A DNA stretch of 64,000 nucleotides, taken from contig NZ_JAGQBA010000002.1 of assembly GCF_024345395.1 (NCBI RefSeq), positions 186,001 through 250,000 of the forward strand, read 5' to 3'. The translations under genes were made by a program, and so were the position numbers. Shown here piece by piece: positions 8,073-36,377 of this stretch. A model generated the notes under the pieces. That model had not been told where the DNA came from. It did not search any database and saw only the letters and a program-made list of their open reading frames with translations. Numbering within the stretch: position 1 is the stretch's first letter; every line of letters begins with the position of its first letter. This DNA comes from Cyanobium sp. Tous-M-B4. Its GTDB lineage: Bacteria > Cyanobacteriota > Cyanobacteriia > PCC-6307 > Cyanobiaceae.

Positions 8073-8936
8073 ATGCTTTTGTCGTTGCGCCGCGCCCCCA
8101 GCCTCTCGGTCCGCATGGCCCGCTGGGGTTTGGTGATCGTGGTGGCCTACGCCCTGGTGGCCCTGCTCACGCCGCTGCTGGTGCATGCCGGCTGGCTTAG
8201 TGATCCCAACGCCGGCCTGCAAAATCCGATCTATGCCCAGCCCTCGCTGAGCCACTGGTGCGGCACCGATCGTTTAGGCCGCGACGTGTGCGTGCGCACC
8301 CTCGCCGGCAGTGGCGTGGCCCTGCAGGTGGTGCTGCTGGCCCTGGTGATCGCCCTGTTGATCGGTGTGCCCCTTGGCATGGTGAGCGGCTACTTGGGCG
8401 GCTGGGTGGATCGGGTGCTGGTGCTGCTGATGGACACCCTCTACACCCTGCCGGTGCTGCTGCTCTCGGTGGTGCTTGCCTTCCTGCTGGGCCGGGGCCT
8501 GCCCAATGCCGCCGCCGCCCTTTGCGTCGTCTACATCCCCCAATACTTCCGGGTGGTGCGCAACCAAACCGCCCAGGTGAAGGCTGAGTTGTTTGTGGAG
8601 GCGGCCCAGTCGCTTGGCGCCGGCCCGATCTGGATCCTGCGCCGCTACCTGCTGCGCAACGTGATCACCTCGGTGCCGGTGCTGCTCACCCTCAACGCCG
8701 CCGATGCCGTGCTGGTGCTCGGTGGCCTCGGCTTTCTGGGCCTTGGCCTGCCCGAAACCATCCCCGAGTGGGGCGGCGACCTGCAGCAGGCCCTCACCGC
8801 CGTGCCCACCGGCATCTGGTGGACCGCCCTCTACCCGGGCTTGGCCATGTTTGTGCTGGTTCTGGGGCTGTCGTTTTTAGGCGAAGGCCTCGAGAGCTGG
8901 CTCAGCGGCGGCAGCGCTCAGCGCACCGGATCCTGA
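8073..8936 (+). CDS. ABC transporter permease, DppC/OppC type
   Basis: An inner-membrane permease of 287 residues with about six hydrophobic segments. GTDRLGRDVCVRTLAGS near residues 69-85 is the N-terminal signature of the DppC/OppC family. The EAA-like loop that docks with the ATPase is ELFVEAAQSLGAGPIWILRR near 173-192, followed by ITSVPVLLTL. It would carry peptides, nickel or similar solutes together with a DppB-type partner, ATPases and a binding protein, none of which is adjacent, so the gene is an orphan in this window. The substrate cannot be named. Its codon use is core-like, in contrast to the TA region before it. Confidence 0.9.
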   Translation: MLLSLRRAPSLSVRMARWGLVIVVAYALVALLTPLLVHAGWLSDPNAGLQNPIYAQPSLSHWCGTDRLGRDVCVRTLAGSGVALQVVLLALVIALLIGVPLGMVSGYLGGWVDRVLVLLMDTLYTLPVLLLSVVLAFLLGRGLPNAAAALCVVYIPQYFRVVRNQTAQVKAELFVEAAQSLGAGPIWILRRYLLRNVITSVPVLLTLNAADAVLVLGGLGFLGLGLPETIPEWGGDLQQALTAVPTGIWWTALYPGLAMFVLVLGLSFLGEGLESWLSGGSAQRTGS

Positions 8937-8958
8937 AGGTCGGAGCCGAAGCCCGTCG

Positions 8959-10098
8959 TTAGGGGCGCAGTTGTCTCAACCAGGCTTCCAGCGGTTCACA
9001 GCGGATGCCATCGATCAGCAGCGGTTCTGGGCACAAGGAGAGCAGCAAGCGCTCTGCCTCTGGGTAGTCCTCACCGAAGGCCCGCAGCGCCTTGAGGTCG
9101 CTGCGATCGATGCGACGGCTGTGTTTCACCTCGATGGCCATAAATAAGTCTGGGCCATACACGACGAAATCCACCTCCAGTCCAGATCGGGTGCGCCAGA
9201 AGCTGAGTTGGGCCCCTCCTGGCCGCAGCTGGCAGAGCGCCCGCAGGTGCTGGGCCACCAGGGATTCCAAAGCGATGCCGCCAATCTCTTCCGGCCCATC
9301 AAGCGGGCCGCGGGGCCTGAGGGAGCGAAAAACTCCGGCATCGAAGCAGAAAAACTTCTGGTGCTGCACCAGCTGCCGCTGGGCTCGCCGTTGAAACACC
9401 GGCAGCCGAAAGCTGATCAACAGATCCTCAAGAATTCCCAGATAGCTTTCAGCCCTTTTGCGGGGTATCTCGGTTTCCCGGGCCAGGTTTGCCAGGTTGA
9501 GCAGGGTGCCCTGCGAAAAGCTGATCACCTCCAGAAACCTTGCGAAATCGCCGATCTGACGCACCAGGGCTTCTGCCTGCACCTCTTCCTGCAGATACAG
9601 CGAGGCATAGGCCGCCAAGGTGGCCTGGGGATCCACGGCTTGCCACACAAGGGGCACCAGTCCGTTGGCCTGGGCCCGCATCAGATCAAAATCCTGGCCG
9701 AGCTCAGCAGCCATGAAGGGCCCCATGTGCACGGCCACCAGCCGCCCACCGAGCAGGTTGGCGGCCCCGTGGCGCAGCTTGCGGGCACTCGAACCGGTGA
9801 GCACAAAACGCAGATCCCGCCGCTGCTCCACCAGGGCATGCACCACGTCGAGCAACTGGGGGGCTTTCTGGATTTCGTCGATCACCACCGTCTGAGCGGA
9901 TTTGCCAGCGGCAGCAATGAATTCCGACAGCCGCTCTGGCCGGGCCTGGTAGGCCCTCAGTACATCCGGTGCCAGCAGATCCAGCCGCAGGGCTTCGGGG
10001 AACACCTGTGCCAGCCAGGTCGACTTGCCGGTGCCGCGGGGGCCAAACAGGAAGAAGCTGCCAGGAGGTGGCTGCAAAAATCGCCGCACTGCCGCCAT
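8959..10098 (-). CDS. AAA ATPase with DUF4143 domain
   Basis: A 379-residue protein. Walker A is GPRGTGKST (residues 19-27), Walker B is TVVIDEIQKAP near 69-79 and sensor FVLTGSSARKL near 98. The C-terminal DUF4143 part carries GLEVDFVVYGPDLFMAIEVK, a nuclease-like motif whose Asp and E-x-K would fit a degenerate PD-(D/E)XK core. Proteins of this kind are common in bacteria, often in variable regions, and their role is unknown. It is convergent with the permease gene (22-base gap). It is the kind of gene that moves horizontally, though its base composition here is core-like. Confidence 0.92.
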   Translation of the reverse strand: MAAVRRFLQPPPGSFFLFGPRGTGKSTWLAQVFPEALRLDLLAPDVLRAYQARPERLSEFIAAAGKSAQTVVIDEIQKAPQLLDVVHALVEQRRDLRFVLTGSSARKLRHGAANLLGGRLVAVHMGPFMAAELGQDFDLMRAQANGLVPLVWQAVDPQATLAAYASLYLQEEVQAEALVRQIGDFARFLEVISFSQGTLLNLANLARETEIPRKRAESYLGILEDLLISFRLPVFQRRAQRQLVQHQKFFCFDAGVFRSLRPRGPLDGPEEIGGIALESLVAQHLRALCQLRPGGAQLSFWRTRSGLEVDFVVYGPDLFMAIEVKHSRRIDRSDLKALRAFGEDYPEAERLLLSLCPEPLLIDGIRCEPLEAWLRQLRP

Positions 10099-30903: not shown

Positions 30904-30988
30904 GGAGAGGTGGCTGAGTGGTCGAAAGCGAACGACTCGAAATCGTTTGAAGGGAAACCTTCCGTGGGTTCGAATCCCACCCTCTCCG
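30904..30988 (+). tRNA. tRNA-Ser (anticodon CGA)
   Basis: Acceptor GGAGAGG (30904-30910) pairs with CCTCTCC (30981-30987), discriminator G. The anticodon loop CTCGAAA (30936-30942) gives CGA at 30938-30940, reading UCG. A long variable arm and TTCGAAT T-loop fit a class II tRNA. CCA is not encoded. The accessory region 31-36.4 kb begins just beyond it. Confidence 0.97.
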
Positions 30989-31004
30989 CTTCTCAATAGT
31001 TTTC

Positions 31005-31031
31005 AAAGGGTCTGATTCGTCCAGACCCTTT
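31005..31031 (+). terminator. Hairpin downstream of tRNA-Ser
   Basis: AAAGGGTCTG (31005-31014) and CAGACCCTTT (31022-31031) form a perfect 10-bp stem with a 7-base loop, 16 bases past the tRNA. The 3' arm ends in TTT but no longer T run follows, so termination may be partial. Confidence 0.65.
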
Positions 31032-31257
31032 GCTGTAACTGGGTTCTTGGTGGGTGGGTGGTCCAGGTGGATCCGCCCGAAAACAAGGGTCTCTGCCTGT
31101 TGTGTTGTTGGACTGCTGATATGCCCTTCTCTGACGCGCAGGTCCGCACTCTGAAGGCAGGTCATTGCAGACGGGTCATTGCAGACAGAGCGAATCTGTC
31201 GGGGATTCCGCTAGAAGCCCTCTGGCGCAAGGGCGTATCGACTGTAGATGATGTTGA

Positions 31258-31440
31258 TTACGCCTCTTTTGAAAACCGCTCTAGAAGGTGGGATGCAAGG
31301 TTGCTAAGCGACCGCCCCTCGCAATCGCTTTTCGTCAGCAAATATCTATAAACGGTATGGGGGATGGTGACGCTGATTCGTTGTGGTTTTCTAAAGGCAA
31401 CTGGAGTTTGATCGCTCCCTTGGGATTCGTGAGTGCCCAT
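31258..31440 (-). CDS. Ribbon-helix-helix DNA-binding protein
   Basis: A 60-residue protein from ATG 31440. After a polar leader the core reads KPQRISVTIPHTVYRYLLTK followed by SDCEGRSLSNLASHLLERF, a CopG/Arc-type ribbon-helix-helix with the (R/K)-(I/V)-(S/T)-(V/I)-(T/S) beta strand and the GRSLSNLA turn common in cyanobacterial members. Such proteins act as small repressors or antitoxins; no toxin is adjacent. An opposite-strand frame (31058-31351) overlaps but shows no protein features. AT-rich codon use marks it as accessory. Confidence 0.7.
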   Translation of the reverse strand: MGTHESQGSDQTPVAFRKPQRISVTIPHTVYRYLLTKSDCEGRSLSNLASHLLERFSKEA

Positions 31441-31522
31441 GGTTGGTAGGTCGTGCCTGGATTTAGCGACCCCCACATTATCCTGAAAGTGAATTAGCGC
31501 AACCTCGCCAATGCTGTGACCC

Positions 31523-31562
31523 GCATTATGCAGTCCCTGCATTATGCAGTCCCTGCATTATG
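31523..31562. repeat. 16-bp tandem repeat, 2.5 copies
   Basis: GCATTATGCAGTCCCT occurs at 31523-31538 and 31539-31554, with a partial third copy to 31562. It lies between the RHH gene and the broken RHH gene, in the upstream region of the former, and could hold its binding sites. Confidence 0.85.
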
Positions 31563-31599
31563 TCGTTTCTGCATCATTTTTCGCTTTTTGTCTAAACTG

Positions 31600-31770
31600 C
31601 TACTGCGACTCGTCTTTGGAAAGAATATCTTTGGCTACTTCTGAGAATGAGCGACTAGTTTTCTCTGCAATCTTGCTAATTTTTCCACGATCTCGTCGCT
31701 TAATTCCAGCTCTATTCGCTTGGGAAAGTCTCTTGGGTCAAGGCGAAAAAAAGTTGTCGCATTGTCTTTC
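31600..31770 (-). pseudogene. Frameshifted ribbon-helix-helix gene
   Basis: On the minus strand one frame reads TTFFRLDPRDFPKRIELELS then DEIVEKLARL; the next frame picks up IAEKTSRSFSEVAKDILSKD and stops at 31600. Joined, they make a typical RHH domain (beta strand RIELELS, helix DEIVEKLARIAEKT, turn SRSFSEVAKDIL). The shift is at the run around GCAAGATTGCAGAG. No ATG is found at the beginning. It is probably a dead relative of the RHH protein upstream. Confidence 0.4.
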
Positions 31771-32163
31771 GTCGTTGCTTGTAAAATTGTGAAAAATGGA
31801 TATAAAGAATCTTTGTTATTGCCTTATTCCTTTTCAATCCTAACTATTTTGCCCTCCCTTCGCTGTTCTGTTTTTCGGAAATCAACAGATAGGCGCTCAG
31901 CAGCGGTTGTGCTATTCCATCCCGTTGTGCCTGACCTTGAAGACTCTTGATGGCATCACTAACTTCTGTGTCGTATTCCCAACTGGTTTGTGACCGCTCC
32001 TTCTACTGAGAAGAACATCAGGATGATCGTTTGCCATTTCCGCTTGGGGTGAGTGGATGATGGGGCGCCGGGCGATTGTGCCAGGGCGCAGTTGAGGCGA
32101 CCTCAGCAACAGGCGATCCCACTATTTAACAATCGCTGCTTGCCTAAAAATATTGTGATTCTG
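31771..32163. other. Intergenic, no supported gene
   Basis: A short open stretch on the minus strand near 31850-32000 reads EYDTEVSDAIKSLQGQAQ and continues to a stop, but it follows directly on a stop codon and has no start. I see no RNA or hairpin with T run. Base composition is lower in GC than the core. Confidence 0.35.
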
Positions 32164-32625
32164 TCAGGCAAATCGCGATATCTGCCATTCGGCATTGCCT
32201 TTACTCTGCGTAAGATGAATGATGTTTTCAAAATCTTTCTCGCCCCTCCACTTTAGTTCAGCATTAATGCCAAGATTATCGGACGAAGTATTGTTATTTA
32301 GCCTTAAGCGTGCCACCGCAAATTCCAATATTTTTAATGTGTGGGGCAGCTGGGCGGCCCATCGGTGGTGTTTATTTTCGTATTTTATCTCTATTGAAAG
32401 ATTCTTGATTGCAGCATTTAGCGCAGTTGGATCGTCAATTAATTCTTCTTTGCTTTGATTGCCATCGCTGCAAGAATTGACATAGAAGTATATGCTTCCT
32501 TTGATTGCAGGCGCTTTTAGGATGCTATCGCTGCCAATCTTGGCAAGAAGTTCCTTATTCTCATCAATCGTCTCCTCGCCAATGTGTCTGCCCAACAGCT
32601 TTGGAGCGCCTGGCTGTTCGTTCAT
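32164..32625 (-). CDS. Hypothetical protein (accessory region)
   Basis: A 153-residue soluble protein from ATG 32625 (MNEQPGAPKLLGRHIGEE). It has alternating charged and hydrophobic segments, e.g. IKGSIYFYVNSCSDGNQSKE, LNAAIKNLSIEIKYENKHH and LKILEFAVARLRLNNNT, and ends GNAEWQISRFA. No membrane segment or signal. Codon use is AT-rich, unlike the core genes. I do not recognise it. The longer start at 32697 adds a leader that looks non-coding. Confidence 0.55.
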   Translation of the reverse strand: MNEQPGAPKLLGRHIGEETIDENKELLAKIGSDSILKAPAIKGSIYFYVNSCSDGNQSKEELIDDPTALNAAIKNLSIEIKYENKHHRWAAQLPHTLKILEFAVARLRLNNNTSSDNLGINAELKWRGEKDFENIIHLTQSKGNAEWQISRFA

Positions 32626-32714
32626 TGCTGCTGGGTCGTGTGGTTGAAGTGTGGCAGGGGATTGCCCCAGTAGAGGCAGGCAGAGTCCTGTTCCCACTGG
32701 CAGCTGCAGTCACG

Positions 32715-32873
32715 ATGAGCGGCAACCATCACGCTCTGGGCGGCATTGAGGTTTGCCAGGTCAATGGTGGAGAAGTCGGTTGGCATTGGTCTGAACCTAT
32801 TGGATCTGCACTCGGGACCTTGCGGAATATTCCACTGGGTTCGGCTGTATATATCGCTACGGCATTCTTATGA
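32715..32873 (+). CDS. Possible 52-residue protein
   Basis: From ATG 32715 a short frame reads MSGNHHALGGIEVCQVNGGE then VGWHWSEPIG and ends GSAVYIATAFL. The residue mix (Gly turns, Trp, alternating hydrophobics) is protein-like. A longer open frame upstream overlaps the hypothetical gene on the other strand. No ribosome site is visible and the family is unknown, so this is weak. Confidence 0.25.
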   Translation: MSGNHHALGGIEVCQVNGGEVGWHWSEPIGSALGTLRNIPLGSAVYIATAFL

Positions 32874-33328
32874 ATTTGCTTTAGAAATGGCAGATTCAGC
32901 GGAGTCGGTATGGATTTCTCTGGTTCGCCTTTCCTTCTTGCCTTTGTCGCCCTGGTGGGGTTTGTTGTGGTTGAAGTAGTACTTAAGTTTGGTGCCTGAC
33001 ATTCTGGTGCCTTTGCTGGGCAGGGAAGCAATAGGTGATTAGCAGTGCTTTGCTCTACTAAGGTGCTTGACGTATTGTTTTTGGCTTAAATCAACCACAG
33101 TAATATACAACCCAGAAGATCCCGCTAGCCCCCTTGTTGCGACAAACCTCGGCGGGCTTTTCTCTGTCGTCCTTGTTCTTGCGGCACTTTAATTATTATT
33201 CTTGTCCTAGGTGTGCTGCAAAAATGCTTAAGCGAGTTAATGGCAAATCTTCTCTTGTGCTGAGGGTCTTTATTGGGGTTGTTGTCTGGTGGATCTGGAA
33301 GCTGGTTCGGATGTAGTCCAAGAATGCT
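32874..33328. other. Intergenic with a possible 30-codon hydrophobic peptide
   Basis: Mostly non-coding, AT-rich. On the plus strand ATG near 33223 opens a 30-codon frame with a basic start and one membrane-type helix (VLRVFIGVVVWWIWKLVRM). It ends just before the convergent small membrane gene at 33329. This size and build recalls type I toxin peptides, but nothing else supports that. Confidence 0.3.
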
Positions 33329-33499
33329 TCAGGACTTTTTCTTCCAGATTCGCTCCAGTGTTTTGCGGAACTCCCCACTGCTTTGTGGTCGTGCCAGGTC
33401 ACGCTTCCAAAAGACGCTGCTAATCCACCACACCTGAAGAGCGCCGAACGCAAGGGCGACCAGACCCAGTTGGATGTAACCCCAGTTGAGCTGCTCCAT
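33329..33499 (-). CDS. Small membrane protein, paralogue A (56 aa)
   Basis: ATG 33499 to TGA 33329-33331. The protein starts MEQLNWGYIQLGLVALAFGA, has one membrane helix continuing to VWWISSVFW, and a basic amphipathic tail WKRDLARPQSSGEFRKTLER then IWKKKS. A close paralogue lies at 34738-34917 on the same strand; about 150 bases are shared with differences concentrated at synonymous sites and at the tail, which argues that both are translated. The family is not recognised. They bracket a LprI-like gene and a methyltransferase. Confidence 0.7.
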   Translation of the reverse strand: MEQLNWGYIQLGLVALAFGALQVWWISSVFWKRDLARPQSSGEFRKTLERIWKKKS

Positions 33500-33518
33500 T
33501 GCGCCAGTGCTCCCCTGA

Positions 33519-33839
33519 TTAATTACCCATCCGCTTGAACTCTTCCAGCAGTGCCCGATTTAGGTGGTCATCGCATCCCACCACCAACTGCGGGTAGATG
33601 GTGCCGTCCTTGTAGGGGGCATAGGCGTGGGCACAGACCGCACGGGTGGCGTCCTGCCACTGTTGGAACATTGCCCTGGGGATCTTGCTTTGGAGTTGGT
33701 CGGTGGACTGCTGCCAGGACACCTCAGCGCAGTAGCGCATCTCCACCGTGTTCTCGCCAGGGCACCGGATCTGGGGTCCCTGGGCGTGGATCGCAGTGGG
33801 GAGTAGGACAAGGCCAGTGGCGACAAGTAGGTGCTTCAT
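33519..33839 (-). CDS. Secreted DUF1311/LprI-like protein
   Basis: A 106-residue protein with a Sec signal (KHLLVATGLVLLPTAIHAQG, cleavage about residue 19). The mature part has four Cys: RCPGENTVEMRYCAEVSWQQ and CAHAYAPYKDGTIYPQLV then GCDDHLNRALLEEF. The N-x-x-x-M-x-x-C-A start and paired Cys are those of DUF1311, the lysozyme-inhibitor LprI N-terminal domain. It would act in the periplasm; lysozyme inhibition is inference. The gene ends 19 bases upstream of the small membrane gene A, so the two may be co-transcribed. Confidence 0.78.
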   Translation of the reverse strand: MKHLLVATGLVLLPTAIHAQGPQIRCPGENTVEMRYCAEVSWQQSTDQLQSKIPRAMFQQWQDATRAVCAHAYAPYKDGTIYPQLVVGCDDHLNRALLEEFKRMGN

Positions 33840-33950
33840 CGGGATCTTCTGGCGCTGCTTGAAGGGTATGGGTGCTTTCTGCTGTTGGCGACTGCCTCGG
33901 CGACAAGGGACTCAATGGACTCCTTGCCTTCACCTCCCCAGCATTTGGCA

Positions 33951-34640
33951 TTATTGATGCAAATAAGTTCGCTTTTTCCAATCACAGTCTTTGCCAAGTA
34001 TTAGATTGCTTCCTTTCCATTCAAATACTTTTTTCAATTTAAGGTTGAATGGGTGTTGAGTCGGGTCAAGAGTTCTGAAGTCTCCTGTTTTTATTTCTCT
34101 GTTGTTTACGGGTGAAAATGGACGCCGCAGCTTTAGAAGAATTTCCCCGAAAGCGGATACGCAGGGAATGTCATTGGTAATTAATGCATATTTGAAGTTT
34201 GGAAGAATTGATAAAATATCTTGAACTTTCTTCGTGCTTAAATGCATTAGTACGTCTTTGCAAACCAGCAGTTCTGCGCGAGGGAGTTCATTGTAATCAT
34301 TTGGAAGACAGGCAAAGGAAACCCCTGGTCGTGAAAATGACTTCTGATTGTTTGCGATTACATTTTTAGATGCATCGATGCCAATATATGTTGCTCTGCC
34401 AAAGTCTAGAAATTGGGAGAACTGCCAGTCGCCGCAGCCAAGGTCAACGACTGATTTAATATCGTGTTGACGAATAAAGTTTTCTAGGAATATCTTGTAG
34501 GGCTGAGTTGCCTCAGGGGAACTTCCGCCCCCAGATCCCTTGCCCCAGTATGAATTTTCATAAATCTTATCAAAAATATCTGGATCGCCAAACTCAAGGC
34601 TCATAAAAAGTCGGTAAATTCTGAACTCTAAATTTAGCAC
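33951..34640 (-). CDS. Class I SAM-dependent methyltransferase
   Basis: A 229-residue protein of AT-rich codon use. SAM motif I is KSVVDLGCGDWQFSQFLDFG near residues 62-81, followed by YIGIDASKNVIANNQKSF, and motif LLVCKDVLMHLSTKKVQDIL near 120-139. The N-terminal part (FDKIYENSYWGKGSGGGSSP) is typical of glycan-locus methyltransferases. The substrate is unknown. Base composition and isolation suggest horizontal acquisition. It lies between the two small membrane paralogues. Confidence 0.88.
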   Translation of the reverse strand: MLNLEFRIYRLFMSLEFGDPDIFDKIYENSYWGKGSGGGSSPEATQPYKIFLENFIRQHDIKSVVDLGCGDWQFSQFLDFGRATYIGIDASKNVIANNQKSFSRPGVSFACLPNDYNELPRAELLVCKDVLMHLSTKKVQDILSILPNFKYALITNDIPCVSAFGEILLKLRRPFSPVNNREIKTGDFRTLDPTQHPFNLKLKKVFEWKGSNLILGKDCDWKKRTYLHQ

Positions 34641-34737
34641 TAAAGATGATTTTATGGTTGCAAACCATAACTCTTGATGTATAGCAGTTATTGCAGACGG
34701 TTTTTGGCAACTTCATAGATACGCAATTATTGCGCCG

Positions 34738-34917
34738 CTACCTCTGCCTCTGTTCCTTCTTCCAGATTTGCTCCAGTGTTTTGCGGAACTCCTCACCGCT
34801 TTGTGGTCGTGCTAGGTCACGCTTCCAAAAGACGCTGCTAATCCACCACACCTGAAGCCCGCCAAACGCCAGGGCGACCAGAGCCAGTTGGATATACCCC
34901 CAGTTCAAGTGCTCCAT
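34738..34917 (-). CDS. Small membrane protein, paralogue B (59 aa)
   Basis: ATG 34917 to TAG 34738-34740. It starts MEHLNWGYIQLALVALAFGG, continues VWWISSVFW and ends WKRDLARPQSGEEFRKTLEQ then IWKKEQRQR. It is a close paralogue of the 56-residue protein at 33329-33499: the helix and the RDLARPQS-x-x-EFRKTLE block are the same and only the ends vary. The duplication is 1.4 kb apart in direct orientation. Function unknown. Confidence 0.7.
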   Translation of the reverse strand: MEHLNWGYIQLALVALAFGGLQVWWISSVFWKRDLARPQSGEEFRKTLEQIWKKEQRQR

Positions 34918-35071
34918 TAGCGACTCAGCTGCAGGGCAGTTTTGATCGGCAGGTGGGCGGTGGGGATTCCCAATGCCACCATTGAAACATTGCCGCAGGT
35001 GTCCGCATGAACACTTGCGACAATCACTCCATGCCGTGAGTGTAAATGCCTAATAGCGTAAGGGAGTCGTG

Positions 35072-35260
35072 ATGAGCGACGGGAAGAATGTCCCTGGCGG
35101 AGTCGAACACGCTAGGGATTTTTTTGTGAACAAACCTTTGATCGCGTGTGTGGCTGCAACAGGTTTGGTCGCCAAGGTTGATGGATTTTTAAAATACGGC
35201 TGCATCAGTGAAGCAGTGTGGCAAGCAAAATGTAATTACAGTCCCCTTGCTTGTAAATAA
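35072..35260 (+). CDS. Small hypothetical protein
   Basis: A 62-residue frame from ATG 35072 with a ribosome site GGGAG at 35062-35066. It reads MSDGKNVPGGVEHARDFFVN then KPLIACVAATGLVAKVDGF and ends CNYSPLACK. A modest hydrophobic stretch is too short for a secure helix. Not recognised. The good ribosome site is the main support. Confidence 0.4.
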   Translation: MSDGKNVPGGVEHARDFFVNKPLIACVAATGLVAKVDGFLKYGCISEAVWQAKCNYSPLACK

Positions 35261-36077: not shown

Positions 36078-36377
36078 TTAGTAGTTGTCGCCGTACTTGA
36101 CTTCGGTTGATGCATTCATGAGTTCAACAGTCGTTTGGAAGCCCTGGGCCACAGTTACCTCGTGTTGAATGCCGATGTCCCTCAATGCAGTTACGTCGTA
36201 TTCAGGGGCGGTGATCCAGCTGAAGCCTTTGCCAAATGTGTTGTCGGGGTTGACTACATACCAATGGCAGGCGGTGTCTGGAACTGCCACCGAGCATTTG
36301 GTCCAGTCGTTGTCCCATTGGGGAACCTGAACAAAAGAAAGGGCGGCAAATAAGAAACCAAAAATGCTTAACAGCAT
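36078..36377 (-). CDS. Small secreted or anchored protein, unknown
   Basis: A 99-residue protein from ATG 36377 with an N-terminal hydrophobic segment MLLSIFGFLFAALSFVQVPQ, either a signal or an anchor. The rest contains two Cys (WTKCSVAVPDTACHWYVV) and aromatic, beta-rich sequence (TFGKGFSWITAPEYDVTAL; HEVTVAQGFQTTVELMNAST). It is not recognised. It is the last gene of the AT-rich stretch before core sequence resumes at 36500. Confidence 0.55.
   Translation of the reverse strand: MLLSIFGFLFAALSFVQVPQWDNDWTKCSVAVPDTACHWYVVNPDNTFGKGFSWITAPEYDVTALRDIGIQHEVTVAQGFQTTVELMNASTEVKYGDNY

Follow-up and report, generated by a model that had tools for sequence, protein, structure and literature searches.

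A previously unclassified family of small, predicted single-helix membrane proteins under selection in picocyanobacteria

Few phototrophs rival Prochlorococcus and Synechococcus in abundance, and no part of their genomes is less well annotated than the small proteins. A 64,000-nt window of the genome of their relative Cyanobium sp. Tous-M-B4 contains two short reading frames that are direct copies of one another and frame two longer genes. Are these short frames genes at all and, if so, what kind of protein do they encode and what might it do? The original prediction, made from the letters of the DNA, took them for a pair of paralogous membrane proteins under selection and suggested that they could be parts of one mobile unit or members of a membrane-acting peptide family.

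Both frames and their translations are present, as are the LprI/DUF1311 and methyltransferase genes between them (Table 1), and both short genes are genuine members of a small membrane protein family. The codirectional copies A and B are separated by 1418 nt and share 91% DNA identity over 162 nt, with copy A starting 19 nt past the stop codon of the DUF1311 gene. A BLASTN comparison of their 1-kb surroundings returned a single alignment, which runs from the start codon of the ORF to a few codons short of its stop, and found no meaningful likeness in the flanks outside the two ORFs.

Table 1. Features in and around the interval between the two short genes; positions are those of the window.
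Feature	Position	Strand	Basis or remark
Copy A: 56-aa A-type small membrane protein	33329..33499	minus	ORF translation, pair comparison, family profile, AlphaFold2 model
106-aa LprI/DUF1311-like protein with four conserved Cys and an N-terminus like a signal peptide	33519..33839	minus	PF07007 in homologues, adjacency
Class I SAM methyltransferase gene	33951..34640	minus	PF13649 at 28.4 bits, above the cut-off of 27; synteny
Copy B: 59-aa A-type small membrane protein	34738..34917	minus	ORF translation, pair comparison, position beside methyltransferase gene as in G126 and G045
140-nt conserved element, two predicted hairpins and a T run	34999..35138	plus	Divergent from copy B; small-RNA- or terminator-like
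c10, 99-aa protein (MLLSIFGFLFAALSFVQVPQWDND...)	36078..36377	minus	Recurrent neighbour of A- and B-type genes

The claim that differences between the copies favour synonymous sites was borne out by a count of both kinds of change. The 17 nucleotide differences in 165 nt fall on codon positions 1, 2 and 3 in the ratio 3/4/10 and cause seven amino acid changes, where a neutral simulation placing the same changes gave 11.8 ± 1.7 (P = 0.005); by the NG86 method, dN is 0.064 and dS 0.317. Each of the five other frames fares worse than the sense frame, with 11–13 amino acid changes as well as stops. Plus-strand antisense ORFs spanning both copies were discarded, being more divergent than the sense frame and carrying a stop in one copy. 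Selection on the protein was thus correctly predicted, and while the window pair alone offers 17 sites, the family data make the claim firm: median omega is 0.17 over 87 A-type pairs, and synonymous codons vary at L11, L13, F18, L21, Q22, W24, W25, I26, S28, F44, L48 and E49 (copy A numbering), residues that are kept, or nearly so, throughout the A-type set.

How far does the family reach? A tblastn-type search with a single sequence detected it in 137 of 300 Cyanobiaceae genomes. A profile built from 41 A-type and marine members, searched against 388 genomes of the class (64 Cyanobiaceae and 324 others, counted from the order of the result table), recovered it in 60 of the 64 Cyanobiaceae, and outside this group gave only two marginal matches, at E values of 5e-4 and 1e-3, both within longer reading frames. 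Absences are soft, since many of the surveyed genomes are drafts and some searches scored limited numbers of candidates. On these surveys, proteins of this family, 55–60 residues long, appear to be essentially confined to picocyanobacteria (Prochlorococcus, Synechococcus, Cyanobium and relatives). Profiles from Pfam, NCBIfam and PHROGs gave no consistent match, apart from single weak holin-profile hits; PDB sequences yielded no match either, the best E value being 0.41, to unrelated chains. Phage, plasmid and viral contigs held no relatives, and an origin from phages or plasmids was rejected, the phage hits being anti-sigma factors at E 0.05. No description of the family was found in the open-access papers searched, although databases such as Cyanorak may list it as a conserved hypothetical cluster.

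In the family alignment, L21, W24 and W25 are invariant, and Q22, I26, L48, E49 and I51 nearly so. The first 10 residues are neutral to acidic (charge -1), residues 11–29 are hydrophobic, and the C-terminal part has a charge of +4 to +6, an amphipathic moment and the motif F-R-x-x-L-E-R-I-W/F. From hydropathy and charge asymmetry, an N-out, C-in topology is expected: one predicted membrane helix obeying the positive-inside asymmetry, a short N-terminus that would lie outside (in the periplasm or lumen) and a basic amphipathic helix that would lie on the cytoplasmic side. An AlphaFold2 model of copy A, built from 13 sequences, places helices at residues 3–35 and 41–55 (mean pLDDT 75.6, pTM 0.35); it supports the two predicted helices and is silent on how they pack. 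Transmembrane energetics are marginal on a crude scale, and the modelled helix is confident at residues 11–30. The linker between helix and tail is much longer in one family member (genome G029), which makes the two parts look modular. The architecture originally proposed, a single-helix membrane protein with a basic amphipathic tail, is therefore supported as a prediction by hydropathy, charge and structural model alike. That this is a real and selected family with the anatomy given here we regard as close to certain.

When the fetched loci were searched with an iterated profile, there came to light a second, B-type, paralogue, not to be confused with copy B of the window, which is the second A-type copy. 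The B-type protein keeps the W-rich helix and an F-R-x-x-L-E-R-I-W tail, evolves with an omega of about 0.25 (five B-type pairs), and splits off in the tree as a group of its own with 100/99 support, in an alignment of few columns and with a midpoint root. At 13 loci from six genera, a B-type gene lies directly 5′ of an A-type gene in a bicistron-like arrangement, the two overlapping by 1 nt in nine loci and by 13 nt in four; among the nine, one has a truncated A gene, and one lacks an ATG, GTG or TTG where the B gene is expected to start. A 1-nt overlap of stop and start is the usual signature of translational coupling, and the A and B genes are probably coupled in this way. The TG that frequently precedes the ATG of lone A-type genes may be the relic of a lost B-type stop codon. 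Upstream ORFs overlapping the starts of lone A-type genes were also considered and proved for the most part to be frames left open by chance in DNA of high GC content. In the window species, the one B-type gene is on contig C1, and both A-type copies in the window stand without a B.

Within the genus, the B-type gene is the conserved core member: it is intact in all 11 genomes that are at least 90% complete and, in the five genomes examined for this, is followed by the same run of three genes, the last of them an ABC1-kinase gene. The A-type gene is accessory and has repeatedly been duplicated and lost, being found duplicated, moved, truncated or not at all. It is broken by an internal TAA in G045, by a TAG in G106 and by truncation in G158; G195 has three broken A-type loci, and G081 has no A-type gene. 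Homologues broken by stops had been named in the original prediction as evidence against a coding gene. Such copies are indeed common among the relatives' A-type genes, but intact, selected copies coexist with them, which argues that single copies are dispensable and not that the frame is noncoding.

Two further observations concern these broken copies. In one G195 locus (L087), a 379-aa ORF at 8158-9294 on the minus strand, which by eye resembles an IS5-type transposase, splits an A-type gene near codon 32. C-terminal fragments had also suggested an insertion hotspot at codons 27–28; on the DNA, breakpoints vary, and only the L087 case is an IS5-like insertion.

Among the neighbours, LprI/DUF1311 is a recurrent upstream partner, in five genera. 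The link to the methyltransferase is local to the genus; in G126 and G045, too, the methyltransferase gene lies downstream of an A-type copy. The window's DUF1311-like protein scores 20.1 bits against PF07007, below the cut-off of 22, but 14 of its 15 homologues match at E ≤ 0.01 (best 2.7e-7). When 30 loci were fetched by DUF1311 alone, six had a codirectional family gene or remnant no more than 450 nt downstream, against an expectation of about 0.01 (our estimate, taking a genome of 2.6 Mb to contain about three copies of the family); with the loci fetched by the family included, adjacency extends to nine loci in five genera, two of them with a stop/start overlap. The marine Synechococcus DUF1311 loci that were examined have no family gene nearby, and the marine Synechococcus family members lie near DoxX, SRAP or GNAT genes. 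The c10 protein, which matches no Pfam family, shows 98–100% identity between the closest species in the genus and occurs in 50 of 151 sampled Cyanobiaceae genomes. In 11 of 37 genomes its gene is no more than 5 kb away from one of the family, where about 0.24 would be expected, a figure that, like the other neighbour associations, is counted over related genomes and not over independent events. The 140-nt element (folding z -2.4 on the plus strand) is 81–94% conserved in the genus and has no match in Rfam; of its 12 copies in seven genomes, six lie upstream of a family or DUF1311 gene, at a distance of 55–424 nt and in divergent orientation.

A different small protein of about 54 aa (MERTKWIPSDEERAVIEVVWIQIKG...) is encoded just upstream of the family gene in three Prochlorococcus-like loci (L097, 5816-5977 on the plus strand; also L094 and L102), and in L097 it overlaps the start of the family gene.

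What might such proteins do? Proteins that combine a single membrane helix with an amphipathic helix in the cytoplasm often act by pairing in the membrane and binding a partner. We favour, at a probability of roughly 0.4 for the whole explanation, anatomy included, a membrane-anchored accessory protein of the cell envelope. The A and B products would be made together, their transmembrane helices would pair into a small membrane-anchored unit, and the cytoplasmic helix would dock either on a protein or on the face of the membrane; the A-type copies in the window would probably work together with the B-type protein of contig C1. The recurrent LprI/DUF1311 neighbour, predicted to be exported and with four conserved cysteines, suggests that the unit serves the envelope. 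ScwA, a periplasmic LprI-domain protein with two disulfides, affects cell-wall homeostasis without inhibiting lysozyme (PMC7933661), so that the label ‘lysozyme inhibitor’ should not be transferred. Against this explanation, the window copies are not in a B–A pair, and the frequent decay of A-type genes argues against an essential role for A. Since most members are not beside DUF1311 (those of marine Synechococcus, with the Prochlorococcus-like ones also elsewhere), the envelope link may be confined to freshwater lineages. The broader idea that the coupled microproteins, the exported LprI-like protein and c10 form an envelope or membrane assembly specific to picocyanobacteria and undescribed in other bacteria is speculative, and we think it improbable.

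Second in our ranking, and on balance unlikely, comes a role in a thylakoid or respiratory membrane complex, where the protein would be a small accessory subunit or an assembly factor restricted to the alpha-cyanobacterial lineage. Size and single span recall the 30–60 aa subunits of photosystems, cytochrome b6f and NDH-1, the family is near-universal in Cyanobiaceae, including streamlined genomes of Prochlorococcus size, and subunits of this kind are frequent in Synechococcus and Prochlorococcus (PMC10903887; PMC5126843). However, the examined neighbourhoods give no connection to photosynthesis or respiratory genes, with a single HLIP-like ORF downstream in L085/L124 as the exception, there is no sequence match to solved chains, photosystem structures included, and variable A-type copy number together with pseudogenes would be unusual for a stoichiometric subunit.

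The history of the locus bears on the next alternative. The tree places copy A, with weak support, outside a group formed by copy B and copies from other species, which would make the duplication about as old as the species splits. Copy B occupies a position common to G045 and G126 (element, A-type gene, methyltransferase), and copy A sits behind DUF1311 in a DUF1311/A-type unit that lies elsewhere in the G045 genome; with histories this different, the arrangement in the window is a composite and not one unit. Its surroundings, from tRNA-Ser(cga) at 30904-30989 to a conserved block beginning at about 35343, form a variable stretch (30904-35140) whose pieces, such as a 177-aa ORF at 32164-32697, are arranged differently at this locus in G045.

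It is accordingly doubtful, and low in our ranking, that the pair is the by-product of a mobile or recombination unit, whether because the ORF rides with methyltransferase and DUF1311 cargo or because it is itself a recombination or insertion site. Loci do differ among species, many copies are truncated, the region near tRNA-Ser is variable, one G195 copy is split by the IS5-like insertion, and a 60-nt stretch has a single mismatch between copies A and B (P about 0.05). Yet the repeats are the ORFs alone and stop with them; no repeats or terminal sequences beyond the ORF and no transposase, integrase or other recombinase were identified between the copies; relatives are absent from the phage, plasmid and viral contigs searched; truncated copies break at many codons; and omega is well below 1. 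The suggestion of one mobile unit thus had to be given up. Least probable of all, also low in the ranking, is a membrane-acting toxin (a type I toxin or holin-like peptide, possibly regulated by the 140-nt element): the short hydrophobic helix with its basic tail, the multiple and decaying copies, the adjacent hairpin element and the weak holin hits would suit it, but the B-type gene is intact in every near-complete genome of the genus, the paralogues are coupled in pairs that are not toxin–antitoxin pairs, the element is divergent instead of antisense, shows no more complementarity to the mRNA than shuffled sequence and belongs to no Rfam family, carriage by phages or plasmids was not seen and purifying selection acts family-wide, leaving no positive evidence for a membrane-acting peptide family in the toxin sense.

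Several known systems invite comparison. Among them are the one-helix microproteins of cyanobacteria, Norf4 and HliR1 (PMC5126843), which likewise have fewer than 80 residues and a single predicted helix, are conserved by lineage and easily escape gene callers. No similarity to them was noted, and the present family differs in its amphipathic helix at the C-terminus and in its coupled paralogue; moreover, marine picocyanobacteria lack Norf1 and Norf4 (PMC5126843), while the family described here occurs in Cyanobiaceae only. The LprI/DUF1311 proteins (PF07007), known from LprI of Mycobacterium tuberculosis and ScwA of Salmonella, resemble the neighbouring gene by the profile of its homologues and by its four cysteines; the small membrane protein itself is not an LprI, and there is no MliC domain. 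Type I toxins and holins share the size, the one helix and the basic tail, but the present family has neither an antisense RNA nor a profile match above cut-off, and consists of coupled paralogues with a B type that belongs to the core. A selected family found in nearly all sampled Cyanobiaceae and lacking an entry in Pfam, NCBIfam or PHROGs is a concrete target, for which the coupled pairs and recurrent neighbours supply testable partners.
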